Assembly (NCBI RefSeq): GCF_020382885.2
Contig: NC_058496.1
Coordinates: forward strand, 8,796,501 to 8,860,500
DNA from: Scatophagus argus
Taxonomy: Eukaryota > Chordata > Actinopteri > Scatophagidae
Direction: 5' to 3'
DNA length: 64,000 bases
The position numbers and the translations under genes were made by a program. Numbering within the stretch: position 1 is the stretch's first letter; every line of letters starts with the position of its first letter. Below the pieces are notes generated by a model. The model was not told the DNA's origin and ran no database searches. It saw nothing but the letters and a program-made list of their open reading frames with translations. Shown in pieces: positions 6,501 to 64,000 of the stretch.

Positions 6501-9500
6501 CGTGATAAAATAGCCGTAGGTGACAACAGGGTAGTCAGGAGTGTTCTCATCTGCACTAATGAGTGGGTCTGGGATTCCCCTTATCTTGCCAAGCCTCACT
6601 GTGGCTGATGCCCGGTCCACTATCAGATCTGTGTAGAGGAAAAAGACACTGATATTACAAACTGCAACACTTCTGAAAGGGAATTAAATGACAGAGTCGG
6701 AAATTTTGAAAACTAAAAACGCACCACCACTCATCATCATGGCCAAGCCCTTAAACGAGTGTCTTTCCTCTGAGGAGATCCACGAGGCATCCAGGTAAGA
6801 GAGCCGTGGGAGACTGTCCACAGTCAAACCCGGGTAGCACGATGCAAGAGTGAAGGGGTTTCCCTCCAGCACCAGCGTCCTGAGGCAGGGGAGCGTCCTC
6901 AAGGCTTTCAGTAGGGCCTGCTGGTCCTGAAACTCACAGTCACTCAGGTCCAGACACACCAGCTGTGGCCTGAGGTCAGAAACATTTTTCACTCACAAAT
7001 AAGCAGACAGCCGAGCGAAAATGAAGCACCTGAAGCTGCTTCTGAATCACTGCCTGAAATGATTTCCAAAGGGCACTCGGGTGATTTAGTATTGAGTCGA
7101 GATACTGAAATATTGATCAACTTGCATCTTTTAGCAAACTCCATGCTTCTGGCAAAATTTTAAAAAAATTCATAACACTTTTTACAAATATTATAAACAA
7201 ATGGCAAAAGGCTGAATCATCTTGCGACATATAAAACTGCGTTTGCTCAAGTCAGAAAACTGTTAACAGGTGAACAGAGACACTGAGCTCACGAGTGGCC
7301 ACTCCGTCTAAGGCTTCTTTTATGAATTTAACATATTTGGATTTGTATGTCTTGTATTTGGGGGCAGCCGTGGCCTCGAGGTTGGAGAAGTGGCTTGTGA
7401 TCGGAGGGTCAACAGTTCGATTCCCCCACCGGACGGGCAGGAAAAATTTGGGTGTGGTGGAGTGATTAATGGGATAAAATGCTCCCCCCCTCCATTAGCC
7501 GGCTGATGTGCCCTTGAGCAAGACACTTAACCCCCCAATATGCTCCCCGGGCGCTTGATGCTGCCCACTGCTCCTGTGTGTGTTTCACTGCATGTAATTT
7601 GCCAGGTGTTGCATGTGTGTTCAACTAAGGATGGGATAAATGCAGTAGTAAAATTCAGTATGTGTGTATGTAAATATATATATATACTGCCAATAAAAAT
7701 TGATTAAAAAAAAAAAAATGTTGATTTGTTGTATTCATTCAACAAAGCAGTTGCATTTCCCAGAGTTTCTGTGCTGTCTGTCTTCTCTACTCCAAGACGA
7801 ATTAATTTCTGACGAAAAATGATTAAGCATTTCAGTCAGATATTTACAATTCTGTTTAAGAAATGATAAAGAAAAAAGATTACTAAGTTAATTTTCTCAG
7901 TGGCTAATATGACTTTATTAGACTTAGTAAGCTGATCGTCTACTGGGATGTGTCACAGTATTTACATCCTAAAATTAATGAGAAATCGTTTTTAACTATA
8001 AATCCAATAGTGCTACCCAGTTTGAATATAAACCTATGATGCTTAACTTTGATATCAGTTGACAGAATAGGAAATTAGTGTGATATCAGTGTAATGTTTC
8101 TCCTCCCACTGAAACCACGTTTAATAGATGTGGTTCTTTAAGGTGGACTCAAAAGATTTTCTCCTGAACAAGGTCTGCTGCAGTCATCACGGTCATCACC
8201 GCCTGACAGCTTTGGCAGTCAAACTTCCAGTGTTGCCTCAGTGAAACAAAAGAAATGTCTGACGGGCAGAAAAAAATCATCTTGACCCAATGTGATAACG
8301 TTGTCTTACCTTACAGACAATTAAAAATTCACAGTTCTTCTCGGATTTTTTTTTTTTTTGTTCGTTTGACCTGGTTTTGGTTTACAGCCCACTTCCTGTG
8401 TGTATGAGTTTGAACTAACCAGTGTCTTCCTGTAAGATGAGAGATGTCTTCATGTGAACCCAGGCTGTTTGAGCCGAGGCCAAGGTAGCGAAGGCGAGGA
8501 GGGGGGCGACTGGTGAGGCTGCTCAGAGCGGACAACTGGTTGGCATGCAGCTCCAAAATCTTTGAAAGAAGCATATTTACAATCAAACAGTTAATGATCA
8601 CTGCATCGCAGTACCTTTGAAGTGATCGGAAAGCAGGAATAGAAACAACTTCCTCTCTTGATGATTCAACAGTGAAATCACCCTCACTGACCAATTTTTG
8701 CTGAGGTGAAATTTCACATAATCTGATTAACTGTACAGCAAGATGATAGCTGATACAGGACTGTGACTCACTTTCAAAGTGCTGGGAAGGTTTTCTGCCG
8801 GGATTTCTAAGATTTCGTTGGCACTTAGCACTAATTCCTCCAGCTTTGAGAACTTCAACAGGCCGTCATCGATGACCAATACCTGAACACAACACAGGCA
8901 AAACATCACACACACTCAAAAAAAAGGAAATTAGCTGGTTAACATATTTACAAAAGTGCAACTTGTAATTTATTTATACAATTTTATGTTTTCACTGTGC
9001 ATATGATTAAATCACGTAGGATTTGCATGAAATTAAGCCACTTAATATTTGTTTATTAGTTAAGTAGATGTAACTTGATACAATCAAGCCAGACAGTACG
9101 CACTTCGCTGGCAGAGGACCTCGCGATACTTCACGCGAGATCACCTGGTATGTCAGAGAATAACAGAGGAATGCAAAAAAAGGCAAGATAAATCTTCGTT
9201 TTAACAATCTAAATGCAGTCGTAAAGGCGCGTCTAAAGTCATAGCAGCCTGTCCATCATTTTCAGGTATATTTGGTGACGCTGTTTATCATTATTTAATC
9301 AATGCCAATTTAGCTTATGCTGGGTAGTTGACGTTTTACCGGGGAGTGGAGCGCCGGGCCAACTTCAACATGTACATTGTGTTGATTGTGTTATGAGAGC
9401 TTAGTCTACTACAAGCTACTGAGGGGTTTGACCCCGGACGACCTTTCTGATGCGCTAAGTTGTCCAGATTTTCTTTCTTGATCAGGAATGAGTCCACACG

Positions 9501-12500
9501 TCTCCATTGACTGCTCCCTCATACGAGGTTTGTTCTCAGTCTCATCAAAAATGTGTCCATTCATCCTCCAACATACAACACCTGTGCCCTAGCGGTCAAA
9601 AAACGGTTTGCCCTTCCGGGGTCACACAACACCTGATGGCCCCAGATTTCCCATTACTAATATACCCTTTTATGGCCTGAATGACCACAGCGCCCCCTGT
9701 GGTACCCACAACAAATACAGAATCACCATGCTTCTCCATAACATTGCATTTGGCTCCTACAGATTGAATAAAATAACCTTCCACTCGTGTCCCGTCTTGT
9801 ATAGCCAACCACTGTATTTTATGTCCATAGTCCGCTTCAGAGTCCATCTGTTGGCTTAATGTTAATGTCTCAGGTTTTATTCTAATTGATGTAACGTTTG
9901 TGGGATTATTACATTCAGAAATGATTACATTTAAAGTTGCGGATGTGTATTCTATATGTTTATTATTGTATTTGTAATTCATTACAATTGTGGCCTGTCA
10001 TTTGACTGGGTGTTACAGCAGCCATGTGTGAGGTCATAGGTCATCTTGTGTTCTCCATGACTCCGTTCAGTCTCCTGTTGTATGTAAGCGACAATTTGAA
10101 ATAATACATAATGTGTTAGCTCTATCTTAACATGTGCTGATTTATCTTATCTCTTTTAGAAAGCATCTGTCATCTGCCTTCCCACCAAAACCCCCTTCTG
10201 CTGGTGGAGGTAGGGGTTCATTGACCAAGTAAGTTGTTTAAAAGTTAATCTTTAAAATGATTTATTTGTTACATTTGTAAAATTATTACATTAGAAATTA
10301 CATTGCATTTAAACAGGTTTTCAATATGTTTATAGGTGATTGTGTATGACCTATAATCCGTAACTCATGTTGATCTTTCTGTACAGGCACACACACATCC
10401 TCTACATGTACAGTGGTTAAAATGATGCTGCACTCCAGAAAATAGCACAGAAGAAAATGTTTCAGGTACATCTACTCTTACACCCCAAATCAAGAGTTAA
10501 ATGTCTTGATAAGTGCTAATTTACCTAATCTCTTTCAGCAAATATCAGTCTGCCCTTCAGCCAAGTCAGAGCCTGCTGATAAAGGACATCATCGGTCGTC
10601 ATCAAGTTAGCGATTTAAACCTTTTTATTATTTGTATTTTATTTTAATTTTTGCTAAATCTGGGTCATCCCCATTTTACTTTTACTGATATTAAATGTAC
10701 CCATCAGTGACAGAGCCAAACTGAGTTTTGTCTGTCATTGTTTTCATTCTTCTCAGAGCTGGATATTCACTCAAATCTGATGAAGGTGTTTGCCAAGACA
10801 GGTGATGCACAAGGGAGGAAAATAAAGACCATCGTGGCACCCATAATCCAGGTATAAAAAATGGCAGATTCTTCACTGAAACATTTGAACATTTTTTGTA
10901 AATGTGATGATGTGAAAGATGTGTGAAACCCACCCCACGTGTTTGTTGAGATTTGTGTTTCTAATGGTGTTTTCTTCTTTTTCTGCATATTAAGGCTGAC
11001 ACTATCTGCATTAGAAGAGAATGCATCCTCAAAGGCCTTTGCATGTACCTAAATGAAGATCCAGAGAAGCTGCTGAAGGAATACCTGGTATGTTTAGGTA
11101 AAGGAATCAAGATTTCTTTACTGCTCCCAAAAGAATTTAGTTTTCCTGTTGATTCCCATCAGTTTATGAAAAGACGTTAATACTCACCCCTCTTTTTCTA
11201 TGACAGGGAAAACACGCACTACACATACTTGAACTCCTTTGTCCGTTACTAAAACAGCATGCCTTATTTTGATGGAATAACTGAACTCATGATTACAACA
11301 GACATGCCAGTGGTAATACTTATTTAGTACCGTATTTTCCGGACTCTGCGGACTAAACAACGATGCGGCTAATCTATAGATTTTTACGGGCTAACAATAC
11401 GGTAATTGAAATAGATTGCCATGACTCCACCCTGACGCAGTTAAATAGTTGAATATCAGGTGGTCATTGTTTGGTTACATTTTCATTTCATTTTCATTCA
11501 AATGTGTTAATTAATTAGTCTCAAAACTGTGGAGATGACAGTGGACTTCAGAAAGAACCCACCCACCTTACCCTCCCCCTCACCAATCTCAACAGCACAG
11601 TATCTACTGTGGACTCTTTTAAGTTCCTGGGAACCACAATCGCCTGGGATCTCAAGTGGAAGACCCACATAGACCTCATCAGGAAAAAGGCCCAGCAGAG
11701 GTTGTAATTTCTGCGTTCTGCGACAGCTGAAGAAGTTCAACCTGCCTCAGGAGCTGCTGACCATCTTCTACACCTCCATCGTCCAGTCTGTTCTCTGCAC
11801 TTCAATCACTGTCTGGTTTGGATCAGCCACCAAACAGGACAAGAACAGACTGCAAGGATAATCAGGTCTGCAGGAAAAATCATCGGGGCCGACCTGCCCT
11901 CCATTCAGGACTTAGACCAGTCCAGGGTCAAAAAATGGGCAGGAAGCATCACTGCAGACCCCTCACACCCTGCACACAAACTGTTTGATGCCAAGACTAC
12001 CAGACACAAAAACAGTTTCTTCCCCCAGGCTGTCTCCCTGATCTCCCCGTAATCCACCTGCCATTGCATGAACCATCGCACTGTTTGCACTACATGTACA
12101 TATATTTATGTCTTGTTTTTTTCTTTTGTAAATACTTTACATTTTATTATTATTTTTTACCATTTTTTATTTTGTATTTTGTATGGTGCACAGGAGAGAG
12201 AGTCAAATTCCTTGTATGGTCACACGTACTTGGCAAATAAAGCTGATTCTGATTTTGATTTTTCATTTTTTTGGCACAGGATGTTGACACCATTCAAATG
12301 GCCTTAGCAGAGACAACCATAGGAGTTTTTGTTGTTTGGCATGAAGATGCAGAGCCTGGTGATGTTGTGAGATGTATAATGTTTGTTAGCATTATAACAC
12401 CAGTGTCTGAATGAATGTGAAAATCATGGAAAGGATTCCCACATTTCCATATTCCAATTTGCTTTTTTTCACCATTAAGCACTTTTGTTTAATAAAGTTG

Positions 12501-13958
12501 ATTAAATATAATTTACTGGAATACTGGTGTAAAATTAGGTGAAAATGTAGTAAATCAGTTGGTCCAAACCTATAGAGTTGAGTTCAAACAAAACATTGCA
12601 AATTAGTTGGGTCAACAAAACTAAGTTAAATTGGATCCCACTGTAGTAATTAAGTTGAAATAACTTAACTGAATTATGTTGACCCAACCTAAGTACTTTA
12701 CGTTAGACTAATAGAGTTGCATTAGGCTAAAACGTAGCAATTCAATCGGGTGGAAATGATTTTTTTATGTTCGTTCAATGAACAATATTTTTGAGTGCAC
12801 AACCTTTCATAACTGTGTTAATGCGTCAAGCATATCATCACAAATCAGTCGCTGCAAACTTCAAAGCAATGCTGATCCATCAGAGGATCTCCAGACAAAC
12901 CGAAAATGTGAACTGGCTTCACCCTGTACTGTCTCTGTACTGTCCATTTTTAGATACAGGTGTTGATATGAGAAACTTCAAGAACTGGGGCTTAAATAAC
13001 TTCAGGATTATAACAAATACCGCTTTTTTTGGGCAGATTTCTAGGGATTAAAACAAACGCCACATTCTAAGACGGGCAGTTGCCGGAGAAAGCCTCCTAG
13101 CAGGCAGAGACACTATAGTCTCCATATTTTGTCCTATAGAGTGCCTGCCATCCCTATAGTTTGTCTGTGGTTATTTCAGTTAGTAACATATGTTAAAGGG
13201 TTACTGATGCTGAAGCACAGGTAGCTCAGGCTCAGCTCAGCTCTGCTCTGCGAACAATAATAATAATAATAACGCACCATTTTGAACTGGAAACTTTCAG
13301 TTGGTGATTCCTAGCTTGGGAGGCTCTACAGATGTCAGAGATCAGGATATATTAAAGTAATTACGTGCGTGTACTGTGCTTTTTTTAAAATTTCAAATTT
13401 ATTACTATTTGCTGAAAGACACAAAACAAGTAATGTTTATGTTCTGCCAGTTTTATCAAATCCTGTAAAAAGGTCAAACGAGAACTGATCAAATTTAAAA
13501 TATAACATTCGGCTCTCAGAAAAAAACAAACAAAATCCAACACACTCACGCCTTTGTCCACAACGCGAAGTGTAGTAAAGTAGCTGTAAACGAAGTCAGC
13601 GTTCAGGCGTTCAGGGGCGAGCACAGCCAGCCGTCTCAGGGCCGCAGCTTGAGGGCTCCATGATTCATCATACGACCATGGAGAGTGAGGGCATCTCAGC
13701 AGATCCAAGAGGGAGTCTGTCTCCTCAGTCTCTGCTCCCTCTGATCTGCTTTTTTTCTTCCTCTGAAAACATAATCGGTGGGTTTATTACCATGCCATAT
13801 AAAAGCGAGCTACTGTATACTGTGATGCTATAGAAAACACAGCAGCCATCTGACAGCCGAAAGCAACTCACCCAGCTGCCACGTCCACAAGGAAAGTCAG
13901 TCAGACGCAGGTGTTGAATCTGCTTCTCTAACACAGCAGAAAGTGTGTTTGAACTCAT
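3588..13958 (-). CDS. lrrc43: LRRC43, leucine-rich repeat protein 43
   Basis: Twelve coding exons on the minus strand, from the ATG at 13958: 13872-13958, 13550-13762, 8772-8882, 8420-8559, 6725-6969, 6465-6628, about 5741-5951, 5136-5311, 5007-5090, 4251-4469, 3988-4081, 3588-3748 (stop). About 567 residues; human LRRC43 is about 650. Exons 3-5 hold leucine-rich repeats ([54 protein letters not shown]), followed by a Tyr/Asp-rich segment and a Lys-rich C-terminal part. All junction phases agree except that the 3' edge of the seventh exon is uncertain: donors at 5740 and near 5806 both give the needed phase 1. The family is testis/cilium-associated but poorly characterised; a scaffold role is inference. 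It lies beside the MLXIP side of the locus as in mammals, which supports the identity. Confidence 0.88.
7363..7719 (+). repeat. tRNA-derived SINE in an LRRC43 intron
   Basis: The block starts with a tRNA-like head (GGGGGCAGCCGTGGCCTCGA), has a Pol III B-box-like GTTCGATTCC at 7415-7424, and a body with the phrase TGCCCTTGAGCAAGACACTT that I recognise from a common fish SINE family. It ends in an AT-rich stretch with a short A run at about 7707-7719. It is not a functional tRNA gene. It sits in the intron between 6970 and 8419 of LRRC43, in the opposite orientation. Confidence 0.8.
11329..11404. repeat. Degenerate fragment of an ACCGTATTTTCCG-type fish repeat
   Basis: The phrase ACCGTATTTTCCGGACT followed by a diverged purine-pyrimidine body resembles the edge of a common interspersed fish repeat. 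It directly precedes the L2 piece, so it may be an older insertion. The family is not assigned. Confidence 0.35.
11520..12268 (+). mobile_element. 5'-truncated L2-clade LINE
   Basis: Conceptual frames contain L2-type reverse transcriptase C-terminal phrases: [20 protein letters not shown], then [20 protein letters not shown], then [16 protein letters not shown], and near the end [20 protein letters not shown] and [12 protein letters not shown]. The frame is broken at least twice (for example near 11705 and 11860), so it is dead. The 3' end (12227-12268) has the L2 hallmark tail GGCAAATAAAGCTGATTCTG with GATT repeats. The 5' end is truncated, as is usual for target-primed insertion. It lies inside the decayed multicopy gene and so postdates that duplication. 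Confidence 0.82.
12540..12800. repeat. AT-rich degenerate interspersed repeat
   Basis: Repeated permutations of AACTTAA/TTAAGTT and GTTGACCCAACC-like words occur through about 250 bases, ending with TTGAGTGCA. This looks like a non-autonomous DNA-element remnant seen widely in fish, but I cannot name the family or its exact ends. Confidence 0.35.
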
Positions 13959-16134: not shown

Positions 16135-16142
16135 TATATAAG
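16135..16142 (+). promoter_or_regulatory. TATA box of the first cytokine-like gene
   Basis: TATATAAG lies 61 bases upstream of the ATG at 16203. A start about 30 bases downstream would give a short 5' UTR of about 35-40 nt, which is common for inducible cytokine genes. Confidence 0.55.
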
Positions 16143-16202
16143 TACATCGTGTGCCAGTTTAGGGTCACTGGCACTCGAAAGCAAAAAGACAAAAGTCACA
16201 CC

Positions 16203-18416
16203 ATGTCTCTTGGTAAAGGTAAGCTGTCTTTTAAATAACAACTAACTAATTTTGATTATTTTTTCCAGAAAGGAGTAAAAAAATAAATAAAAAACTTTAC
16301 TAACTGTTTAAGGAATAATTCAAACATTTTACTTGTTTACCAGCAGTTTATTTCCTTATGGTCTATTCTTTCTGGTACAACTTCAGGTACTTCTGAGGCG
16401 CATGGAAAAGGGAAAACTCAAGCAACACTTGTAGTATAAAGAACATTTAATTTCATCTGGATGACCTTTGGATGAAGGTCACAAGGCGAAATGTGCTGCA
16501 CTGACGCTAAAATTGTTCTTTGTATCACAAGTGTGGCTGGAGCTTTGACCTATTCAATCTATTATTCTCTCAAAGTAAAGTCTTGCGGTTTTATCTTATT
16601 GTGATGTTGATTCTATTTAGACTTGGGCAAACATCTGGTTGATGTACTATGCAGATTATATCATATGTTTCGTGTGTAACTTCCTGCAGAGGTCCTGCTT
16701 TCCTGCATTGTGATGATGTACTTCTCCTTTATGGCTTCCGCACCAACTGAGCGAATTAATCTAAATGAGATTCAGAAGAACCTGCAGGGGATGCCGATAA
16801 TATTGTGTGATCTGCAGAGTGCTGAAGAGAGTTATGTAAGTAAACACATCTTACTTCACAGTGTTGAGAACCGCCTTTGCAAAGTAGTATGCAGTATGAA
16901 ACTATTCATTCATTTTATTTTTCAGTATACCAAGCAGGCTTAGCTGATTTTCAGTTTTGCAAAGTGGAAGTAAACAACAGCACCCCCGGTGGCCAAACAC
17001 CTCAACTGCGTAAAATTAATTTTACATTTAAAATAATGACCATGTTGGTTTTAATCATATTGTGAACATTTTCTCCTTGGCAATAGCTGCATAATAAATA
17101 ATAATAATAATTTCATAATTCATAATAATTTCAATAAAATACGTCAGAATGTAATGTAATTGTTGGAGAATCATTTTCCAACCTTTAAGTGTTTAAGTGT
17201 TGAACACTGAATCCTCAGTTACTCTGTTATTCCGCTTAGTGGCATCTCTGGGGCAGGTCATCCCAAGGCCAGTTCCAAGGGAGTTGCATCAACAATACTG
17301 TTATCAATTCACTGCTTGCAGCTGTGCGTTGGTGCTGGGAAGTACCAAGAGGTACTGGTTCTCCACCCTTTGGGTGGCAATACCTCATTGAGATGCCAAC
17401 TGTCTTGCTGTATAGTCTATCTGACCTATGTGACCTCGTCATGCGTAACACTGATGTCTCTACTGGAGACAGAGGTATGCGATGTTGATATACGACTAAT
17501 ATCTTACATTTAGTATATATGCATCCTGACAGGAAGAGTAGACTTCAGAATTGGCGTGGCAATGCACAGAGTAACATCAGCTCTGTGTTAACGCTATTTC
17601 TCCTCGACTAAGTGTCATTAAATACTTCATCATAAGACATCAGCGTCTCCTGAGTTTCCTTCCATCTTCTGAGTTCAAGGTTTTTCCTAACAGTAATGAG
17701 ATGAGAAGACCAGTACAAAAATGAAGTGTTTTTGGCATACTGCAGCTGTTGCTTTTGTTTGCATAACTACAAACTACATGCTACATTTTGGATAAATCAG
17801 AACATACTGCTAACACAGCAGGTGATTTCTGCCTGTATTTTTCCAGTTTATTTTTCATTTTTCATGAAATTTTTTCATGTGAGAGTTATATTGTGGTAAA
17901 AGTCAGGCCATAAAGCTACTATAAAGTCAAATTGCCTTCTTACCATTGATGGAGAGACATTTTGAACCCATTATTAAAAGTTATGACAGCTGAAGGCGTC
18001 AAGTTCTGTCCTCCTTCTCATAATGACTCTTACTTCTTCTCTAGACAGAGCAGTTGTTTGGAGGAAATTCACCTAACCAACTAGAGCCCCCTGAGGGAAT
18101 CACTTGGCCAGCAGGAAACACCACCGAAGAACTCCAGACCTCCATCTGTGCAATCATTGACTACCTCGAAAATCACCTGCCGACAATCATCACTTCTCTC
18201 ATCGAGCAACCTCAAGATATCATCAGTGCAACTGCAAATTTCAATTTTCAGTTCAAAGAAGCAGTTAGAAGGGGACAAATCAATAACAAGGTTCCAAAAG
18301 GCTGCCGCAGAAATGTGACGACGTCGCATGATTTCGTGAAGAGACAAATTGGCTTCCGAATCATTTACTTTACCAGAAAATGGGTGGAGCATTTTGCAAA
18401 CGCCACCTGTGAGTGA
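16203..18416 (+). CDS. Secreted LIF/OSM/M17-like helical cytokine candidate
   Basis: Three coding exons: 16203-16218 (MSLGK plus one base), 16690-16835, 18045-18416; 177 residues. The first intron is phase 1, the second phase 0, and all have GT-AG ends. Joined exons 1-2 give a hydrophobic signal peptide (EVLLSCIVMMYFSFMASA, likely cleavage before PTERIN), then a first helix and LCDLQSAEESY. Exon 3 gives GNTTEELQTSICAIIDYLEN, a likely B helix, and a C-terminal helix HDFVKRQIGFRIIYFTRKWV. That last helix resembles the D helix of LIF/OSM (F-x-x-K/R..G..): OSM has FQRKLEGCRFL at this place, from memory. There are four Cys in the mature chain and three N-glycosylation sequons (NTT, NVT, NAT). The three-exon plan with a tiny first exon is the LIF/OSM plan. 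It lies between LRRC43 and MLXIP, the mammalian IL31 position. It could be the described fish M17 or a new relative; family-level confidence is moderate. Confidence 0.68.
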
Positions 18417-18445
18417 AAACACTTCAGCCAACTTTTTAACAAATG

Positions 18446-18615
18446 TATTTATTTATTTATTGATCTGTTATTTAAGACTGTGTATGTTAATTTGTAATTG
18501 TCAGTATTTATTTTACTTACACTGAATGATCTTTTCCACACTGTCATCTTTGTGCTGCTCGATGCTGACTGGATGTTGTACTGGATGACTTTTTAAATAT
18601 CAACTAAAAAATAAA
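18446..18615 (+). promoter_or_regulatory. AU-rich element and poly(A) signal of first cytokine-like gene
   Basis: TATTTATTTATTTATTG at 18446-18462 has three overlapping AUUUA pentamers, 30 bases after the stop, with another ATTTA near 18504. This is the type of element that destabilises cytokine mRNAs. AATAAA at 18610-18615 is a candidate polyadenylation signal. Confidence 0.65.
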
Positions 18616-19604
18616 TATTTAGTTCAAACCCCTTATTTAATCTTAAGCATTATTATTATTATTTAGGGGTCCTTCTTCACTACAATTATCACATATCATT
18701 TATCTGTCACAGTTCACCTTTGTGGTATCAAGTATCCACCCAGCAAAAATGTTAGTATTTGACAATCTGAGAGTGTATGTTAGCTATCTCCTTTTAGAAC
18801 TGTTCACACCCAAAAACATCCTGCACACAGCAAAACACCAAGAAAATAAGAAAATAAAGGCAGGGGGCTGGGTCTCCGCAGATACAACGTATAATATACC
18901 CTTAACCATCACAATTTAATGCTTAATCCAAACCCCACATCCTCATACAGTAACTGATCTCAACATCGCCTTCATTGTATCATTCCACCACTAATTCACA
19001 TCAGACCAGCAGCCCATAGGCAAGCCAATGTGGACTGGTTTCTGCTGGGATCATTGTCTTATTCCCCCTAAAGCTAAGCCTAACCAGAGTTCGGCTGTCA
19101 TCTAAACCTAATCCAACCCAAACCTAGTGCTAATCTTAATCTTAAAACTAAAATCTTGAAAACTAACACTGATCCTCACAAATATAGCAAAAGTAACTAT
19201 TTCTTTTCTATATTTCATGTATATATTTTTTTATTTACAACACAAAGCAGTCACCAAAAAAAATCGTCAAAGAAAGGCTAAAGCACACCTCTTTAATAAA
19301 CAGTATTGTGGCTTTTAACACCTAGTTTTAGTTGAAAGAATTTTAAAGATTTAATCAGACTTTTGGTTGACTGCGGTCCTGTTACGGGATGTGTAGGTTT
19401 TTCTAAGCCAAAGATTCTGAGAGGGAACCCCCAGAAGGTAAAACTAAATCCTATACTTGTATGACCTTTCTGAGACTGCTGCAGGCGGAAAATATTGAGA
19501 TGCTGATCTTTATCTAGGGAGCCTTAATAAATGTGATCCTTGAAAGGTGGATCAGAGAAAGTCTCACATCAGAGAACCTGCTGTCAAGTAAACCTCCCAG
19601 TGTC
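18616..19604. other. Spacer between the two cytokine-like genes
   Basis: No coding exon supported. A C/T-A-rich block at about 19070-19160 has degenerate CTAACC/CTAAACC words. The right end should hold the promoter of the second gene: a kappaB-like GGGAACCCCC at 19423-19432 and a weak TATA-like TTAATAAA at 19524-19531, 74-81 bases before the ATG. Both are inferences from short motifs. Confidence 0.45.
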
Positions 19605-20697
19605 ATGGATTGCCGTGCTGGTAAGCATCTTGAAGTGCGGTTCATAGTCCTACTGCTTGAACTTCTGCATGCAAAGTTGCACAAGACTAATAGAGAGGGC
19701 ACTGCAGATCACATGTGTGTGTGCGACCTTGCTGCATAGTAAGGACCTAAACAAGCTTTCAGCCAACCAACTGAGGACATTTTTGGAAAGGGAGGACAGT
19801 GAGGAAAAACTGTTTTGAAGGTTAAGACCTGGCTGTAAGGGATCAAGGTCAGGGGCGAATTATGTCATTGAGGGACCTCACAAGGATGGAAGTTTAAGTG
19901 TGTACTTATTCAAATCTGATTAATCTCCACTGTGTGCTCTCTTATGTCACTGTTGTAGTCCTCATCTTCCTGTGTGTGCTCATTGCACAAGCTGGCTGCA
20001 GACCCGTTAGTAATGGAGCAAACACCGAAGCCTTGAAAGAAACCATCCAACTGATGCAGACGGAGATACGGACCACCCTCAAACACCTCGTAAGCTTTTT
20101 GGTGTTTAATCAAATCTGTTTAGGCTTTAGGCTAATTGTTAGTGGTAGAAGATGTATTCATATCAATTATGCTACAACAGTAAGCCTTGAATTAGAGATA
20201 CTGTCCCGATACACTGTTGGGTAGATTAATCTCAAACAACACATCAAGTTTTACAATGACTGAATGGCATGTCGTAAAGTCTGTATCTGTAAAATTACCA
20301 GTAGTAACTACAAATGGCACATAAATGTAACTGAGTACTGATTTGGACACCTACTGACCAGGACTGCATCCGCCAGGCTGCACCCGGATTGCTTCCCAAC
20401 CTCTCCTGCATGTCCCTGAACACAACCAAGCTGATGGGCCTGGAGGAGGAGCCCGTAACCGCTCGGAGCCTCTCCTTCTTCCGCTGCTACATGATGGAAC
20501 TGTCCGAGCTGACCCCGGAGCTTTCCACCCATCTGCAAATAACCAGCCAGTACGCTCAGAATATGGAGCAGCTGATGAATGCGACAGTCAGTCAGCAGTG
20601 CACTTTACCCTCCTTTGAGCAGGAATTGGACAGTTATGTGTACGCCAAGTGTCTGCTGCAGCTTCTGGACCAGAGGCTGAGAAAAGCAAAATTTTGA
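19605..20697 (+). CDS. Second tandem secreted helical cytokine candidate (orphan; IL31-position)
   Basis: Three coding exons: 19605-19620 (MDCRA plus one base), 19959-20089, 20362-20697; 160 residues, close to the 164 of human IL-31. Exon 1 has exactly the same length (16 nt) and phase as its neighbour's. A signal peptide is clear (AVLIFLCVLIAQAGC, cleavage near GC/RPV). Predicted amphipathic helices: TEALKETIQLMQTEIRTTL; SFFRCYMMELSEL; a long helix ELSTHLQITSQYAQNMEQLM; a last one EQELDSYVYAKCLLQLLDQR. Cys are in LSCMS, FRCYM, QQCTL, AKCLL and DCIRQ; sequons NLS, NTT, NAT. LPNLSCMSLN recalls the NYTLPCLSPD of human IL-31 (sequon next to Cys), a weak match. I do not recognise a certain family; IL-31-like is argued from position, exon plan and size. 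Confidence 0.65.
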
Positions 20698-20718
20698 TTT
20701 CACTGTCTAGTAAGAATG

Positions 20719-20875
20719 TTAAATTTATTTATTATACAAAATCTGAACTTCTGTAATCTAGTTTTATACTGGATCAGAAAGTAAACTTGCTCTAGAAGTT
20801 ATTTAACAGTTACTTTTCACTCACTATCTTTATCTATAATTAAGTAATTATTTAAAAGTATTTATTGAAAATAAA
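20719..20875 (+). promoter_or_regulatory. AU-rich 3' UTR and poly(A) signal of second cytokine-like gene
   Basis: ATTTATTTATTA begins 22 bases after the stop, with a further AGTATTTATTG at about 20858, then AATAAA at 20870-20875. The 3' UTR is about 190 nt. The element mirrors that of the first gene. Confidence 0.6.
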
Positions 20876-20909
20876 GTAATAAGAAATCAAGATTTTCAGA
20901 TTTGTTGCT

Positions 20910-20915
20910 TTTATT
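20910..20915 (-). terminator. Candidate MLXIP poly(A) signal
   Basis: TTTATT on the + strand is AATAAA on the minus strand. If used, MLXIP and the second cytokine-like gene end within a few tens of bases of each other in opposite directions. Other minus-strand AATAAA words in 20.7-20.9 kb are possible. Confidence 0.35.
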
Positions 20916-21576: not shown

Positions 21577-21613
<37 letters not shown>

Positions 21614-23129: not shown

Positions 23130-26100
23130 CTACGTATTGGTGTGTGTGACGGCTTGGATGGCTTCCTCGGGCAGCAGGGATGGATCACTGAGGATGGATG
23201 TGGTTGTACTCAGCTGGCGTAGGGTACTCAGCACCACTGAAAAACAATTAACCACAATTCAACAACCAGGGATCAATGAAGCATTTCTGATTCTGGTAAT
23301 TCAGCTTTAAAATGCGGCATTTTGAAGCTAACTAACAAGAGCCCTACAGTAAGTGTGTACTTGATTCACGATTTTCCAAGTGGACTGCAAGTTGGTTGCT
23401 CAATACAACCAACTATTTGTAATGACTGGGTTGCAGGCAAGGTTTGGAGTCCAAAGTAATGCATAAGAACCCCGTGAGTCATGCTGAAGGCAATGAATAT
23501 TTCTTACAACTGATGATTTGCCTGCAGAACTTCCTGATAGATATGACTCATTAATTGAATCATCACATTTAAGGAGTTCAGAGGTCTGACGCAGTGCAGG
23601 CCCAGCCTCCTGAAGCTGAACTGTGAGCTGCCCAAAGTGTGACTGAATTGTAGAAATTTTCTGATGTCACCAGTGGGAGATGGAGAAAATAAAACTATTG
23701 GAAAGTGCATGCGTGAGTGATGTCATGTATTATTAAAAAATGAGACACTCTGTTTCCTGCCACGGGTGCTTGATAACAAAACAGTCAGGAAAAAACAACA
23801 CAGATAGTGCCAGATAGGAAGTAGAAAATCTTGAGTAACTGAATCACGCACAGTGACGTGATGAAGAGAAAGTCCCCTAGCGCTTACAAATGATCCACAA
23901 TTACCAATCCTTTCTGTTGTAGCCATGGAGTAGGTGAGCTGCATGCCTCCATGTGGGTGTTTGTGCTATCTATGAGAAACTATCAGTCTATCACTTACTG
24001 GGTCTGAGCATGGGGAGGGAGCAGTAACGGTCGAGCCACTGCATTGTGGTATGATACAGCTCCTCGCTGCTGGTAGTCGACACCATCCCATTGAATGTCT
24101 CAAACAGAGGCTTGATGATGATGCTGAACTGGAACGGATGGTGGTCAAGGATCAGTTATACTTCAGAGTGAGAAAAATGCAATTCTCCATGACCAACTGT
24201 TTGTGCTCCAGACAAAAAGTAGCCTCTGCATTGTTTTGGTGTAATGAATTTACCGCACACGGTATACAGGGCTAAAACATGGAGCTCTAGCCAAGATAAT
24301 TAGTGTCCCTGGCTACTGGATCATGAGTGATTGCTGAATTTGCTCAGTGTGTAGACAAATCTTCCACAGCGGGAAACTGACAGCAGCCACCACACAAATG
24401 CTTGGAAATTCTGCGTCAGACAGAGCATTTTTACTGTCTACAATATTTGGCAGATGGCCAACAAAACAATTCTCCTTCCGAAATACAGAGTGAATAGAGT
24501 AGCGTGGCTTTCCTCAAGAGCAAAGGGAAGATTTTAAAATGGTTTAGCTGTGTAGCCATTACTTCCTATCATGTCTAACCTCACTAGGCATGACAGAGGA
24601 TACGATCATTCTGTTAGGCATCAGTCTCATCTGAATAAGGTGCCTGTCAGACACAACAGCATTCGAGATTAAAGCAAAGATGATTACACCAGACTATGTG
24701 TTGTGTCTAAGCAGCAAACAGTGTAAGTGAACTGAAGGATACGATCCAGAACTTCCAGTTCTGAAGAGTGCGGTTCTTTACATATTCATTGAACTCTTGC
24801 ATGTGGTTGAAGTGATGTCGCCTGATGGGCACTCCTGATGCAGGCAGCTGTTTCTGACACATGCTGTCATCAGACAGGGACAGAAGAAAAAAAAAAAGTT
24901 GTTGTGAGTGAATGAGTTAAGTTTCTGTGCAACTTTTTTTATATCATAAAAGGGTTATGATAAACCCAGTGTTTCAACGTACTTAATGGAGGCGTTGAGC
25001 TCTTCTATCTCCTCTCGCAGTCTCCTGACCTCGTCCTGCATCTGCTGTCTCTCCTGCTGGAGTTTCCCAATGTGCTCCACTGTCTTCTGCAATGTCACTG
25101 CATTACTGATCTAGATTCATAAAGTTAATGAATTTGGCAGGAAGGGAGAAAGAAAATAAAATATTTATAAAAGTATGTGAAGCAAAATACCGTAACACTA
25201 CAAACTAAAAATCATGATGTCCTGAATCCAGATACTCAGACTTACATTTGATTGCGACTTTAGAGTGGGAACCAGGTCACAGAGTGTTTTAAAGCCATTA
25301 TTTATGTTTGATCGTCTCTTTTGCTCGGCAGATATGTGCGTTGTCCTCCGGCTCTGTCAAACAACAGCAGGAGAAGGGGACATTCCTTAAATTGAGGGTA
25401 TGTTTATTCATTTTTCACAATATTTTCGAGGCACGTCCAATCCTACGAAAGACGTATATGTTAATCAGTTAATAATATGCTCATAAAAACATTAGGAGAA
25501 CATTTATGTTAAGAAACAAATGCACAAACCTGATTTTGTTCATTCTTTACCCGAGGTGTCCTGCTGCTGCTGATCAGTGACTGGGGACTAGGGACTTGAT
25601 CTAATCCACATGGTGAGCCTTGTCCTGATCCTGGCTGACTGCGAACTGGAAAGAAAAAAAACCAAACAAACTTAACAATCGGTGCCTTTGGAGTTCTGAT
25701 GTGCTTTCTGGGTAAAGTGAGCACTTACCGACACTGGAGGAGGCTTTCTGATTTTTGCAGCTGGAAGACTCAGGCTTTTCTTTGGGGATAATTGGCTGGG
25801 GAGACTTCTGTGTATGAGACACAACGTGGAATCCAGAAGCCTGAGATTCATGAAAAGAGAACAAACAGACAATAAAAACACCAATAAAATATGACCTTTC
25901 TTTACTCTGTGACTCCACAGCAATAGTAGTTTCATTTTTCAATAATTTCACACATGACAAAATCAACCATGAAATATAAATGTGTAATTTTGAATTAGCA
26001 ACTAAATAATTCCAGGACCCATTGTTGCATGAGAAAAAAAACGACACAGTGAGGATGACACTGACAGAACTGAAAACATACCGCTCCAAGCTGAGGAGGC

Positions 26101-29100
26101 ATGACCACATCTGCTTTCAAAGGTGTTGGTGTAAGGATCACTGTGTTAGCATGACCTGGGAAAGGGCCTGAGAGGGTGAACAACGACAGTAAGGCACCGC
26201 AGTGTGACGTTAGGAGAATATCCACACCATATCATATGTGACAAATTTGTCCTCGGTGAGTTTTTCATTATAAAAGAACATTTTGCAAAAATTTTACAAA
26301 GGTGTTTTATAAAGCGAAAGGCAAAGTCACCCTCATAGTCTTGGGGTTTTGGTGCTGACCACCCCACCTAACAAAAACAACAACCCAACCAAATGTCAGT
26401 ATATCACGTACATTAATAGGTTTTGTTTGGTTCTGTGCTCGCCAAAAAACAAGAAGACATTATCAGTGACACAAGCTTCAGTGACTCTATATGCATACTA
26501 CCAACACGATTAAATAAGAAAGGCAAAAGCGCCATCTTGTGGTAGATCAGTTAAAATGATGCAACCCCACTGCCAGATCAACAGTGATTAATGCACAGTT
26601 TCTCCAAACGCAGAATCATATCTTGATCTCAAGATCCAAAGCAACAGACCTGTGAAGATGAGTTGCGAAGAAGGGAGCGTGTTAGCAAGAGCAATCCTTT
26701 GCACAGGGCGGTTTTTGTTGGCACTGGACGACTGCAAGGGCCGAGGCAGGGCAAAAGTTTGAGAGGGCGGGACAGAAGTGGCAGGCAACGAAGCCAAAGG
26801 TTGGAGCTGAGATGGAGGAGGCGGAGGTAGTGTGGATATGGAGCTATACTCCGTGCCGTGGCTGAAGGTGGTGGCCGCGTCGCTGGGTGTGACAGTAGAG
26901 GAGGCCGTGTGCGTGATCACAGATGGTGGGACAGTTTCACCCAGCGCTGAAGTGTTCTCCAATGGTGAAGGCACCATGGGTGCAGCTGAGGCCATGTCCT
27001 GTCCTGAGAGGCACTGAGCCAGAGGGTCATGGGACAGCGGCTGAGAAACTGTGGAAACTACTGCTTGATCGCTGCGGGCCACCTGCCCAGGAAACAAAGG
27101 CATGTAGTTTTGTACATAGGCAGCATCACTACTGTTGCCATCTGTTCGACTGGTTTCACTGGTCATGGGAGAGGGGATGGGCAGGGGGCCAGGAGGGGAG
27201 ATATGGTTGGTTGTGAGTTGCATGGAAGATATTAACTGGGCCTGGCAAGGGATGACAAAGGAAAAGGGGAATAAATACACTCCTTTCATGTAGTGCAATA
27301 TGACACAAAATAAACACAGTTCTCTGAAAGTTCACATTAGCTGCAAATTATTTCTTTTGTGCTGGCTAAGATCATGACAGCAAAAAGACAGTCTTTCTAC
27401 CTATTCCAAACCTATTGCATGGTTTATCTGTTTGTCAGCAACGGCAGTGACAGACGTGGACTGATTATTCATTGAAATATTAGTGCTGACTGCAACCACT
27501 TTGCACTTAAGAAAAAACTAATTTTCCTAGTCTGTGAAAACCTGAAAACATGCCCTTACATACACTAATGTGCTGACAAAATAAGTTCTTGGCTAACTCT
27601 TAGAAACTGTTACTGTTGAATTTTTGTACCTAAATGACAGACAAGGATCTACAGTAAAGCTGCATTTATGGAATCAACTAAAACATTCATGCACCAAAAC
27701 ATGGCTAAATAAATGAATGCTGCAGAATGACAACATGAACATCTTTAGCCATATTTTGAGTATTTGATTCTCAAAAGAATATAAATTTAATGTTAAGCAG
27801 TTTGAGCAGCAAGTCATGTATGAAAAGTGCTAAAGTTTAGTAATATTATTATGTTACATAGATTTTTGTGTAACTACATTAAAAGAGAAATAAGGTACAA
27901 GACGTGGTGAAAATTTCTGTTAACTGACTAAAAACACTAAATGTCGTAAATCTAGAAAAAAATTTTTTAACACAGTCCTTGCTGTCATCATGGTGGTGTG
28001 TGTTAGGGACTGTGCTTTGCTTCGGTGTTTACCTGTGACTGAGAGCTGCTGCTGGGTAGAGGGGTGACAGATGGTGCAGTAGGGGAAACAGAGGGGAAGG
28101 TGGACTGACGGAGGCTGTGAAATAAGTCTGGAACAAGAGTCTCTATGTTAGCTAGAGGTTAGTAAAACCACACTACTTTTTGTGTTAAGCTAAGCCAACT
28201 GCTGTAGCAGAGTTACAAGAACATGTGCACTTGATTACTGTAAAGTGTTCAAAATTAGTGTGTGTGCACGGTGCTATGGTGGCTATTGGTGGTGCTTTAC
28301 GGCTACCTTGCAGCGGATCAAAAGAGTCCATGAAGTCCAGGTTGGGTTGTAAGGGGATGAGTCCTGGTTGGATCATGTCTGCATTTCCTGCATGAGCTGA
28401 GGAAGATAATGAGGCAGAGGCAGAGGCAGGGGGAGACATCGAGCATTTTGACGGATGCATTAGTATACTGTAGCAGCATATTCAGATGTTATAAATAACA
28501 GAAGTTTGTTAACAAATTTGAATGTGAAGAAACACAATGAACCAAAGCCAAAAGTAGGCATTTAGCCAAAACTCTATTATTAAAGGAAGTACTGAGTGAG
28601 TAGGAAGATACTAGAAATCTAATTAGGATGTTTCTACTGATTTTATAAAACACACAGCTGATGATTTTCTCACCAATCTCCCTTGGATTTGGCAGGACTA
28701 TGGGCTGATGTGAGGCCAACGTGGAGAACAACGTGTCTGAAAACTCAGACATCAAAACATCCATGTCAAAGAGGGGGTCCATCTCCATAGGAGCAGGTGT
28801 TTCACTATGCTTACGAGGGAAACGACGTGCTGCAGTCTCTTCATCCTGATAAAGGGAAACACGGAGCATGTCTGGAGAGAGTTCCCCAAACAGCGATAAC
28901 TGCTCCTCTGGGCCCTTTGAATATTAGAAAATGTAACCACCAAGCAAGTTAATGACACACAAGCATGCCAGTGTTAAGTACAGCCAACATGGGATGATTT
29001 CTCTCCACACTTCAGGCACTATTATTAAAAAAAAAAAAGTCACCTTCATTACAAGCTAGACAGGTGTAAGCACAAAGTATTCATGGATGCAAAGTGAAAA

Positions 29101-32100
29101 GTACATGAACAATAACGTGAGGTGTGACTGGGTTAGCGTGAATTAATTTCATCAATATCAACATCTGGGTGAACAGATGCTAAAAGTAATGCTCATGCTG
29201 TGCTTCGGTAAGTTGGGCATAATGCAATGCTGCATACCTTAAGCAAGCTTGAGAGGTCCTCATCCTTGTGCTTCTGTAACTGTAAACACATTATTGAGTG
29301 CCACATTAGATGAACATCAATGTTTTAAGATCAATCAAACAGGATATGCATAAAACATGGCCAGTATCAGCCTGACAAAAACTGAAATATTTGTAAAAGA
29401 AATGAACAATGTAGTACCCGTTTCTTAAAGTACGTTCTCCACTTGTGGTATTCTCTTATGACAATTTCAATTCTTCTTTTCCAGCATTTCCCCTCTGTGG
29501 CAGCAGCCTGCAAAAGAAAGAGGGAGATGGGAAATAAACCCAAGTCCACGACAAACACACAACACAAAGAGAGGAAGTGCCAAGGGAAACATAAAACTAA
29601 AGTAATTGTTTAGACGACTGAACATAAAATGATTCAAAGTAGAAATTCCCTGACATTATGTGCAGTTTGTACATCACATAATTATTTTATTTTTCTATCC
29701 TTACCTCAGCAGGACGATGGATGTCCATATCTATAGTAGAGTCCAGGGGAGTCACAAAGTGACAAACAGGATTATCTCTTCTCTCCACATCTGAGGGTAG
29801 AAAAACAACCTCAACGTCACCCTCGGTTGTAATATACAGGTTTTTTTTGTTGTTTTGTTTTAGACCTGTGAATTACATTTACAGTGTAATTAAAGGCCAC
29901 ATTACTTAAAGTTATGAAGATCACAAAAGCAGTGAAATTGAAATTTCACTTTTTGTAAAACATCTGCACTTTCTGGTTCACAAACTTCCTCACCATACAG
30001 TCTTTGTTGCTCATTGCATCACTACACACAACATAAGAGAATGCTGGTTATTACAGACGAACTCTGTAACGTAAAACAGAGCACCTTGCATCAATGTCCA
30101 ACATTTGCTTTTCCACTGACACCTCCAAATACTTTCCTACTACTTGTCTGCATCATGTATGCAGACTGCAGCTTCACCTGGGGATGGACAATCTGACAAT
30201 TTTAGATCAAGATAATGAAGACATCCACCATCTACCTATCAAGTGAACCGTACAGATGTTATATTGTTTTGTTTTTTTCTTTTAAATAGTGAAAATGGAT
30301 GAATTCATGGGCTATTTTAATTCTGGCTATAGTCTACGGGGTATTTCAAAATTGATTAATAAAGATCGTAATTACAGTTAAATAGATTGTGATATCATTT
30401 TTTCATAGTTCAGCTCACAGTCCACGAAAAGCCTGACTCAGATTGCATTTATTTTTAAGACATAAGTGGGAGTTGCTATAGTCACTATCACAAAACTGCT
30501 CATGGCATTATGTCAACCACCTGTTACTGGAAGTTTCCAAGACTCTGCCAATATTTATCTGGAAATAATAAAAATCACAATGCAGCTCCACGTTAAGAAT
30601 AGGTTGTAATAAACCTGCGTAAGCAATCAGGTTTACGATGGAGTCTCCCTACCATTTCTGACAACAGATTGAAGCCACTTTAAATCCAAACACTAAACAA
30701 TCCAGTGCACACTCTCTGGATATCAAATCAAAGTGTGTGGAACGCTTACACTGCATATACCAGGCTCTCCATATGGCATTGTTGAGGCGGATCTTGTCTC
30801 TCCAAAGCAGTTTTAGCCCCTTGAAGTTCTTCCATTTGGGAGATACCAACTTACCGCTGAAAAGACAAGAAAATTAACAGTGAGGAAGTTCTCAAGTGAT
30901 GAGAGACAAACAAGACATTCTAGGTAACAAATGTGATAGCTCAACTTTTTAGGAGCCCAGTATCTCAAGTCTAATTTAAACCCTTAAGGATCACAGTGCT
31001 CCAATTTTTTATCAGCAGAAGAAGATCATCAAAAGACCGACAATAACACAACCCCTTAACTTGGATTTGTGAAGTTGTTTTTATTATGGTTATTAACTTA
31101 TATAAGTTGAAATCAACATGAACTTGTGGTTTGTTTCTGTCATAATCTTTTAACATTCACCTCACAGACCTGATTGGACATTAATATTGAAGCTTGACAA
31201 TGACCCCAAGCCTTAATACCTGGGAGTGATGCTTGCTCGCTGGAACGCTGAGCCAGCATCCATCACTCATTAAAAAGGTAAGAGAGCACCGTCTGGCGAG
31301 TGGAGTTACATGTCTGAAGAGTGAGCGTAAGGCTGACAGACTGGTCTGAATCAGGCTCCTAGTGCCGATGCAGGCTCTGGAAACGCTGATCTATTTTACA
31401 AATGACAGAAAGGGCGATGTGTCCCGTGCCACAGGAACAGAACAAGGTTTAACTCTACCCTGAGAGTCAAAGTTCCCAATAATTGGGAAAAAAATGTACA
31501 GGTCAACTTGACAAAACACAGACACTGTACTGAAAACACTCCAAGAAATAAAGCAAGCCAGACAAGCAAGCAGGAATCCATCAAGGTCAAGCTTAAGCTC
31601 AAATGATCACTGCAACTGTGATATGGATACGTGGAGTCAAATAAACTGCGAGGAAACAACACACACACGCTACCAAATGTAAAACAAGTTGACATTTGAG
31701 GAATTCAGTAGTGTGCACTGCTTTGACTGCACTATGAGGAGCAGGTAATACTAAACAGCAGAGTTGCCCCATAATTGACTGAAACTTAGCAGCAACAAAC
31801 GGCTGTGGTATAAAGTTTAAGATCAGAGTACTGCAGACAAGATAGTATGACAACCAAGAAAAAAGGGACCACTTCATTTGAAGGTGTGGCATGTCATGTG
31901 CCATGTCATCTTATGCCCAGCCTTTCATTTAAAAAAATAAATAAAAGTGTGACTTATAATGTTACAGAAGAATATTCAGTAGAAAATATTTCAAATCTGC
32001 TTTGATAGACTGAATGTTTCTTCCAAACCAAAAAGGGTCAGCTCCCAGTGTCCCCTCTTTCCTGTTCTGTCTTTTTTACTGTCAGTCCTTCCTGTTTGTG

Positions 32101-34700
32101 TGCTTAGTTTCCATATGAATTTTGTATGAGTCCTTGGGAGTAGAAGAAGCTGTTAGATTGGTAGTTCAGCTTGGTGGTAAAAGAGCTTTGTAGGTACCCC
32201 AGTGTTCTTGTGTTTGTTCTTGTTTATGAACATACCATTCTCATGTTCACAAATACTCATCACTTCTCTTCAGATGAATGACAACAGCAGAACAGTAACT
32301 GGTAGTACTGCTTTCCTGGTCTATAAATAGTCCTCCTAATGAATCCAAGTTGGTTCCATTTGCAAAGTCAGAGGGAATCCTCTGAGCAGCTGGCTTTGCA
32401 CCACAGCTAAAGAAACACCACAGCTGTGAACAGAAAAGCTTGGGTAATGTGAGCCCTACCTCTAAATATGCTGTATTTAAACCCGACTATTATTTGCACA
32501 TTTTAGTTTGTATTTAAAAAAAATACAATACATTCACCTTGTCCGAGATATATGAACTTATCAACACTCACAGCCTTGATGTTTGTCTTTGTTTGCCTTT
32601 TCAGGACACTGAGCTGCATTATGAATCACGGCTTTTACATTTTAAGGGTATTTTATAGCCTGGAGAATAAAGTCCAGCATGGAAAACATTTATGACATAA
32701 ATAGGAAAGTGGTGGCACAGCAGTAGGTGGTGACATTATGGTGAACTGTCAATTTTAGGCCACATTTAAAGCTGAAATGTCTCAGTCTAGGAATATACAG
32801 TACGTCAAGAGCAATTCTGATTTTAGTTTAATAATTTTACTAAATTATTAAGTAAAAACATTTTTTTGCTTGTTTCTCTCAGTTTTACACAATTACAGAC
32901 AAAGATAGACAAAGATAAACAATTGAGGACACTGATTTGCCCTGTGGCAACTCATTTTATAGACTAAAGGATAAGCCCCAAATTAAATTGACAGATATTT
33001 AAAACAATACTTTCCAGAGGACCCAGTAGATAATAATTAATAATTTGATAATTGTGCATCAGTCAGTGTCAAAACAAAGTTAGATTTTGATTAATTGTTT
33101 AGTCTATGAAAGGTCAAAAAATGTGTTAAATTCTTTTCACGATTTCCCAAAGTGACATCTCAATCAAACTGCTTCTTTTGTCCAGCCAGCAGTCTAAAAC
33201 CCAAAGATCCTTCATTTACTGCCATAAAATACAAAGAAAAGCAGCAAATCCTTGGAAAACAGCAAATGTTTGACGGAGAGATATGTCAGCACATATCTGT
33301 TTTCAGCATTTGCCTTCGCCCAGTGGTGGAGCCGGCTGATACCCAGTAAGATAAGAACTAATTCACGCAGCACCGGCCCTCACTGAATTGTCTCTTCCCC
33401 CAGTAGGCACACATATTACAACAATTTGGCATCGACTGTCTTGTTCGGCGGCGATGAAAGAGGCAGGAATCAAAACCATCAATTATCACCATGAATGATT
33501 GAACCTGCTGCACAACCTGACTCACAGGAATTCAGAAAGAACCTTACGCAATATATACCACTATTATCCTTATTGGCAAACAACTGTATGTCTATGGGGG
33601 CGTGCCAGCCCGTGTTCCCGTTCAGCGCTATCAAAACAAACAAAAATATTTCTTCTGTAATGAAAGTGGTGTCAAATCTGTCTGATACAATTGAATCTTG
33701 TCCATGTCAGGTTTAGCAAGACCTAAAAGATAAGTGCTTGTTCCTGGTTTGCCTGTTTAAATGGTTCCACCCTAAGTTAAAGCAATGGTCTGTCTTTCAA
33801 GAGTGCAATGAGGGTTTGAGAACTCATTAGGCGCCATCTTTTGAGCTCACAATGTTTCAATAGAGTCCCAAACTAAACCAGTGATAGTCAGTTCACTCAA
33901 GCACTGTAGTGGAATACAAAGTGTTAGCATTTCCAGCAGACATTTCCCCTCTTAACTTATCGGATGGTTTCATTCAAATAACTGTGTGACATCCAAAGTA
34001 ATAATAGCAATGATCTGATAATATCATACATAAGATTTATATTATCCTCACATATAAAGCTAGTCACAGGGGCTCTCATTTCTGCACACAATTTGCATTT
34101 TGCTGATAATATTTCCGTACTTTTACTTCAATAAAATTTTGAACGTAGGACTTTTTCTTGTTTTGGAGTATTTTTACTCTGTGGAACTGCTACTTCTATT
34201 AAAGTAACGGGTCTTGGTATGTCTGTCGCACTGAAGTGACTCTGGTCAAGCAGGAAGTTACATGAAGAGAGGACTCGTGACTGCAATTTCACACCAGTGA
34301 AAAATACTGCAGAGAGCTAAAGGGAAAATAAACGTTCCCACGTGAATACAGGGGTGGTGAGATGTACCACAGCTTACCTATAGGCTAGAGTCATGCACTC
34401 AAAGAGTTTGGTCAGCGAAGCGTCTATGGAGAAGTGCGACATGCTCGCCTTGCCAAAACGATACGTCTGACAGGTCTGTTTGTTGACAGTATCGAAGTCA
34501 TATCCTTTCTTTGGGGGGTGCTCGCTGTGGGGCGATGACACCATGAAGTGTCCGCTGTGGATGATCTGAGACTCCAGACCGTCCGATCTCCTCAGCCCCA
34601 GGGTGGTCTCCTCAGCGTCCGAGTCGTCCTCCTGTTCTTGCTTTATGATCGACGGCGGGCGACGGTATTCCTGCCTGAAAGACATCTCTCTAGTAGCCAT
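23130..34700 (-). CDS. mlxip: MLXIP (MondoA), bHLH-Zip glucose-sensing transcription factor
   Basis: Complete gene, about 880 residues (human 919). Exons in order: 34378-34700, 30750-30856, 29705-29790, 29418-29507, 29238-29279, 28863-28914, 28674-28845, about 28307-28470, 28033-28127, 26650-27241, 26331-26354, 26082-26167, 25729-25840, 25530-25645, 25246-25353, 24983-25110, 24743-24863, 23999-24128, 23130-23235. N-terminal Mondo conserved regions: IIHSGHFMVSSPHSEHPPKK, then SPKWKNFKGLKLLWRDKIRL and IREYHKWRTYFKKR, which give glucose-6-phosphate sensing, 14-3-3 binding and nuclear export. A Pro/Ser-rich activation region follows. bHLH-Zip: HISAEQKRRSNINNGFKTLC and LQKTVEHIGKLQQERQQMQD. The C-terminal part (NWKFWIFSIIIKPLFETFNG) is the Mondo dimerisation/cytoplasmic-localisation domain. 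MondoA pairs with MLX and drives TXNIP and related genes. The eighth exon's 5' edge is uncertain. Confidence 0.95.
30857..34377. other. MLXIP intron 1
   Basis: 3.5 kb, AT-rich. Read on both strands without finding a spliced or intact coding unit or a named mobile element. First-intron position makes it a likely place for enhancers, but nothing specific is visible. Confidence 0.6.

Positions 34701-60129: not shown

Positions 60130-64000
<3,871 letters not shown>

Follow-up and report, generated by a model that had tools for sequence, protein, structure and literature searches.

According to passages of a 2016 review, the teleost interleukin-6 (IL-6) family then consisted of IL-6, IL-11, CNTF-like and M17, of which CNTF-like and M17 are the LIF/CNTF-type genes of fish, and IL-31 was stated to be unknown in fish (PMC4929537). 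Zebrafish clcf1, cntf and m17 are reported as three separate genes. A 2026 survey reports IL31 in mammals only, using cut-offs of E 1e-5 and 30% identity (PMC13203501). A literature search limited to titles and the openings of abstracts returned neither a fish IL-31 nor fish cytokine synteny at LRRC43/MLXIP. Here, we describe two tandem genes, gene 1 and gene 2, in a 64,000-nucleotide (nt) stretch of the Scatophagus argus genome (C4:8796501-8860500 of the 570.7 Mb in 48 contigs that were searched; hereafter the window). They lie between LRRC43 and MLXIP, the IL31 position, and most likely represent a pair of uncatalogued IL-6-type cytokines. In our view, cut-offs such as those of the 2026 survey would miss genes like these.

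Two tandem three-exon genes between LRRC43 and MLXIP

Gene 1 (177 amino acids) lies upstream of gene 2 (160 amino acids), and both are three-exon genes on the plus strand (table 1). The original prediction had described each as having a leader, cysteines, sequons and a first exon of only 16 nt, and all of this was confirmed by the reading frames, by the GT-AG borders of all four introns, across which the frame is kept, and by a template search. In both genes the introns are in phase 1 and then phase 0. Both proteins start with a hydrophobic leader and contain three sequons each; the mature chain of gene 1 contains four cysteines and that of gene 2 five if it is cleaved behind C19, both cleavage sites being guesses. 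Analysis of hydrophobic moments suggested three helices in gene 1 (as many in 87/500 shuffles) and four in gene 2 (as many in 17/500). The predicted position between LRRC43 and MLXIP likewise held when the flanks were matched, the name MLXIP being partly our presumption.

Such models could arise from chance splicing of open frames. The template required an ATG exon of 10-31 nt ending in phase 1, a second exon of 100-200 nt ending in phase 0, a last exon no shorter than 110 codons and a hydrophobic leader. On the plus strand of window positions 14000-22500 it returned three models, whose last exons were those of gene 1 and gene 2 only, and on the minus strand of the same region it returned none. 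No secreted model was found in 400 dinucleotide shuffles (a single leaderless one appeared in 1/400) or in 22 other half-overlapping 8.5-kb piece-strands. This test is post hoc, because we relaxed the splice-site cut-offs just far enough for gene 1 and gene 2 to pass; with stricter thresholds nothing passes anywhere, gene 1 and gene 2 included. Chance splicing of these predicted gene models draws some support from weak splice sites (in a simple matrix, the second acceptor of gene 2 scores -0.04 and its second donor 0.88). Given the empty shuffles and other pieces, as well as the AU-rich elements downstream of both stop codons, we nevertheless consider it extremely unlikely.

A second line of evidence, independent of the template search, is the cytokine-type AU-rich nonamer UUAUUUAWW, which occurs ten times on the plus strand and 12 times on the minus strand of the 64 kb. 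Four of the ten plus-strand copies fall in the 427 nt that follow the two stop codons (binomial P-value = 4e-7, with the ends of these stretches picked post hoc), and dinucleotide shuffles of each 3' stretch reach its count in 16/5000 and 15/5000 cases.

Possible relationship to LIF/CNTF-type cytokines

We consider it likely that the products of both genes are helical cytokines of IL-6 type, secreted and glycosylated, and that their mRNAs are short-lived, gene 1 being a far-diverged relative on the CNTF/CLCF1/cardiotrophin-1 side and gene 2 a drifted tandem neighbour of the same architecture. Mammalian LIF/CNTF-type genes have three coding exons, intron phases 1 then 0 and a very short first exon, and both window genes show this layout. 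Within the same genome, a phase-0 intron 2 was read in M17, CNTF-like and clcf1, and a phase-1 intron 1 from the M17 acceptor only, the first exons being unlocated. The CNTF exon boundary is used here as background, for which the literature search gave no confirmation.

Searches of Pfam, NCBIfam and PDB sequences with both proteins returned nothing beyond weak matches, and these were to unrelated families or chains. Gene 1 shows weak similarity to the CNTF/CLCF1 group (9.1 bits, with 0/2000 shuffles as good, for the best of five profiles). It shares with the CNTF/CLCF1/cardiotrophin-1 group a phase-0 intron 2 after a Tyr codon, a codon that closes exon 2 also in M17, CNTF-like and clcf1 of the same genome, and an F-x-x-(K/R)-x-x-G...W pattern where the last helix begins. 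In LIF/CNTF-branch cytokines, helix D begins with a Phe-x-x-Lys patch; gene 1 has F-V-K-R at the corresponding place (equalled in 111/20000 shuffles), but at least 8 of the 1943 segments taken from the window outscore it. On the other hand, gene 1 scores far below held-out members of the group, is not recognized by Pfam (CNTF, PF01110; PRF, PF06875), and is located at the IL31 position rather than at clcf1 (contig C12) or CNTF-like (C4:16.76 Mb). Two further results lowered our confidence in the preferred reading of both genes and raised that in an independent gain of other cytokines or secreted proteins: reversed controls outscore gene 1 in the other four of the five profiles, and M17 and clcf1 of the same genome lack the AU-rich nonamer (1200 nt scanned for M17). 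The nonamer is no family mark, because the CNTF-like gene has five copies within 1200 nt of its stop and the other two genes have none. Taken together, gene 1 appears to lean weakly toward the CNTF/CLCF1 group.

Gene 2 is not similar in sequence to gene 1 and matches no family securely by sequence. Its best profile results, obtained with the LIF group, were equalled in 42/1000 and 104/2000 shuffles (eighteen tests, uncorrected). Its four amphipathic stretches lie at mature positions 11, 65, 88 and 123, a spacing roughly like that of LIF (21, 78, 110 and 163). Gene 2 resembles M17/LIF/OSM (LIF_OSM, PF01291) in the phases of exons 2 and 3 but has F-E-Q-E (6688/20000 shuffles) where F-x-x-K would be expected and lacks the Tyr codon of exon 2; moreover, M17 of the same genome sits elsewhere and lacks the nonamer in 1200 nt. 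A cytokine is still the best reading of gene 2, which stands in tandem with gene 1, has the same exon layout, and carries a leader and AU-rich elements. Of the small cytokine cluster initially proposed, the cytokine-type anatomy stands and both genes are probably cytokines, but the family match of gene 2 is insecure.

It might be argued that the interval independently gained the two genes, either from a different branch of the class I helical cytokines or from secreted helical proteins without any relation to these, which would agree with the dissimilarity of the two genes and the lack of a secure match for gene 2. We regard this as unlikely, if worth keeping in mind, since the intron phases and AU-rich elements of both genes fit a LIF/CNTF-type cytokine and gene 1 has both a CNTF-group profile signal and the exon-2 Tyr codon.

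A different question is whether the window genes are the already published teleost CNTF-like and M17, which passages of the 2016 review present as the two fish genes of LIF/CNTF type (PMC4929537) and which share the phase-0 intron 2 with them in this genome. Better candidates, named by family matches, were found elsewhere. LIF_OSM matches C20:9487515-9487832, and the protein assembled there reaches E 1.7e-8, over the cut-off for the family, as expected of M17. Using this protein as query, we detected a second gene at C4:16759541-16759936 (E 5e-6, 32% identity over 134 residues); its assembled protein (C4:16759541-16760572, L041) matches CNTF with E 1.7e-4 and 21.5 bits, the cut-off being 22.7, and judging from its sequence it is most likely the published CNTF-like gene. 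The human CLCF1 query identified clcf1 on C12 (E 4e-25). The window proteins match neither the LIF_OSM nor the CNTF family in Pfam, and we therefore find it very unlikely that they are the published pair. Searches of the genome with human CNTF, PF06875 and PF15209 gave zero matches, and PF01110 gave two below its cut-off and missed the CNTF-like gene found with M17; an empty result is of little weight for three of these four queries.

The M17 gene of this genome spans C20:9487479-9488156 (L003/L012), and its neighbours resemble, by eye, TAOK3, an HSPB gene, SUSD2 and a class I myosin. In clcf1 (L016/L017, C12:11749902-11751314), a single open frame of 471 codons covers exon 3 and includes a low-complexity stretch of about 280 codons; this stretch separates the matched parts, within the C-D loop, and may be an insertion or an open intron. 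Other weak genome matches were read and appeared chance-like (L004, L018-L020) or were judged on score alone (L007-L009, L042). In viral contigs, no confirmed relative was found (21 and 2 pattern stretches).

Gene order around the two genes

According to the gene list of a horse study, the order around IL31 is TMEM120B, RHOF, SETD1B, HPD, PSMD9, WDR66, BCL7A, MLXIP, IL31, LRRC43, B3GNT4, DIABLO, CLIP1, and the fish block is co-linear with it for the genes identified (PMC6402180). Because the flanking gene order matches, the two fish genes are at the place of IL31. No BCL7A was seen between MLXIP and CFAP251 in the fish block; a bcl7a-like gene is on C20.

The neighbours were named from matches to individual frames (table 1). 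The CAP-Gly domain of CLIP1 lies upstream of its last exon (L028, E 5e-25). In LRRC43, 90 residues of 6687-6992 match PDB 9ijj_5C (E 1e-13), frame 8332-8865 matches LRR_8 alone (E 0.046), and frame 13388-13783 is presumably part of the same gene. The exon at 25201-25356 matches Pfam HLH (E 8.4e-9), which shows the domain; we take the gene to be MLXIP from gene order, and its other frames are assumed to belong to it. Frame 38878-39243 of CFAP251 matches PDB 9d2f_K (E 4.5e-19), the remaining CFAP251/WDR66 frames being presumed. Like the two fish genes, human IL31 is oriented opposite to both MLXIP and LRRC43.

Further to the right, PSMD9-like frames are present at 48249-49843 on the plus strand (Nas2_N, E 2.3e-4; PDZ, E 1.8e-3; both under cut-off). 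Between CFAP251 and these frames, frame 46927-47343 looks RABGEF1-like by eye and has no family match. A soluble Rieske-type protein (56625-57486; E 9.4e-22 and 8.7e-11) and a kinesin motor gene (60150-64000; E 2.5e-22, KIF24-like by eye) are absent from the horse list around IL31.

Table 1. Positions of the exons, putative regulatory elements and neighbouring genes in the window.
Feature	Position	Strand	Remarks
CLIP1, last exon	2027..2260	+	Gene enters from left; Pfam CLIP1_ZNF (zinc knuckle), E 2.6e-18
LRRC43, left neighbour	6687..13783	-	Span from frames seen; PDB 9ijj_5C LRRC43
TATA-like box TATATAAG	16135..16142	+	68 nt 5' of gene 1 ATG; lone pattern match, without chance estimate
Gene 1 exon 1	16203..16218	+	16 nt; MSLGK + 1 nt; phase 1; ATG; donor GTAAGC
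Gene 1 exon 2	16690..16835	+	Completes the leader and holds the presumed first helix; final residues EESY, phase 0, codon TAT
Gene 1 exon 3	18045..18416	+	Remaining helices (presumed); stop TGA; last-helix stretch DFVKRQIGFRIIYFTRKW
Two overlapping UUAUUUAWW AU-rich elements	18449..18461	+	Just 3' of gene 1 stop
AATAAA	18610..18615	+	Possible gene 1 polyadenylation signal
NF-kappaB-like site GGGAACCCCC	19423..19432	+	182 nt 5' of gene 2 ATG; lone pattern match, without chance estimate
Gene 2 exon 1	19605..19620	+	16 nt; MDCRA + 1 nt; phase 1
Gene 2 exon 2	19959..20089	+	Completes the leader and holds the first amphipathic stretch; final residues KHL, phase 0
Gene 2 exon 3	20362..20697	+	Three more amphipathic stretches; stop TGA
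UUAUUUAWW AU-rich element	20725..20733	+	Gene 2 3' end
UUAUUUAWW AU-rich element, second of gene 2	20848-20856	+	Gene 2 3' end
AATAAA	20870..20875	+	Possible gene 2 polyadenylation signal
MLXIP, right neighbour	24958..34724	-	Span from frames seen; bHLH exon, name presumed
CFAP251/WDR66	36103..40952	-	Span from frames seen; PDB 9d2f_K CFAP251

Relation to IL-31 and proposed function

The window genes resemble IL-31 (PF15209) in their place between MLXIP and LRRC43 and in being predicted small secreted helical proteins, but neither is similar to it by profile. Against an IL-31 profile built from two sequences, 165/2000 shuffles of gene 1 and 696/2000 of gene 2 score as well. The idea that these genes are the teleost occupants of the IL31 locus therefore holds for gene order and not for kinship with IL-31. 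Because neither gene resembles IL-31 by profile, descent from an ancestor shared with IL31 is suggested by position, and the sequences neither support nor exclude it. On position, too, the locus would be older than tetrapods.

Compatible with our preferred reading, one of the two genes could be a true fish IL31 orthologue changed beyond sequence recognition. The shared place makes this a fair question, yet neither gene gives a signal with the two-sequence profile, and a genome search with the IL31 family of Pfam came back empty, the control genomes being silent as well; the orthologue is quite conceivable but falls short of probable. Tentatively, it is also possible that IL-6-type cytokines were already present in the LRRC43-MLXIP interval of the bony-fish ancestor and have stayed there, that fish keep two of them, one near the CNTF/CLCF1/cardiotrophin type, and that mammalian IL31 is the surviving, fast-changed descendant of one of the two.

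On the human map, as we assume it, IL31 lies by BCL7A/MLXIP, CTF1 by BCL7C and CLCF1 by KDM2A. Two bcl7 loci were found in the fish genome, one bcl7a-like on C20 and one bcl7b-like on C5 beside a baz1b-like frame (names presumed), and bcl7c had no match. No cytokine was seen by eye in 8 kb beside the bcl7b-like gene on C5, the C20 locus being read only within its 3-kb loci, and no kdm2a was seen by eye among frames of at least 120 codons in the 60 kb around clcf1. If an ancestral interval of this kind and the assumed human map are both true, IL31 would have arisen by genome duplication as a sister to cardiotrophin-1 and CLCF1 and would not be a mammalian invention.

We infer the bundle fold, receptors, signalling and orthology of both genes; cytokines of the LIF/CNTF branch fold as an up-up-down-down four-helix bundle and signal through gp130-class receptors. 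Immune or injury signals may induce their transcription, and the AU-rich elements would clear the message quickly. After removal of the leader, the helical protein would be secreted and might bind a gp130-class receptor together with a LIFR/OSMR-like partner, gene 1 possibly making contact by way of the Phe-x-x-Lys/Arg patch with which its last helix would begin. JAK/STAT3 would then be activated downstream of the receptor.

The presence of cytokine-type genes at the IL31 place in fish suggests that this locus is as old as the ancestor of bony fishes, and it offers a way to test from which branch the itch cytokine IL-31 came. With gene 1 and gene 2, the IL-6 family of teleosts would grow by two ligands, and both are candidate ligands for fish gp130/LIFR-type receptors.

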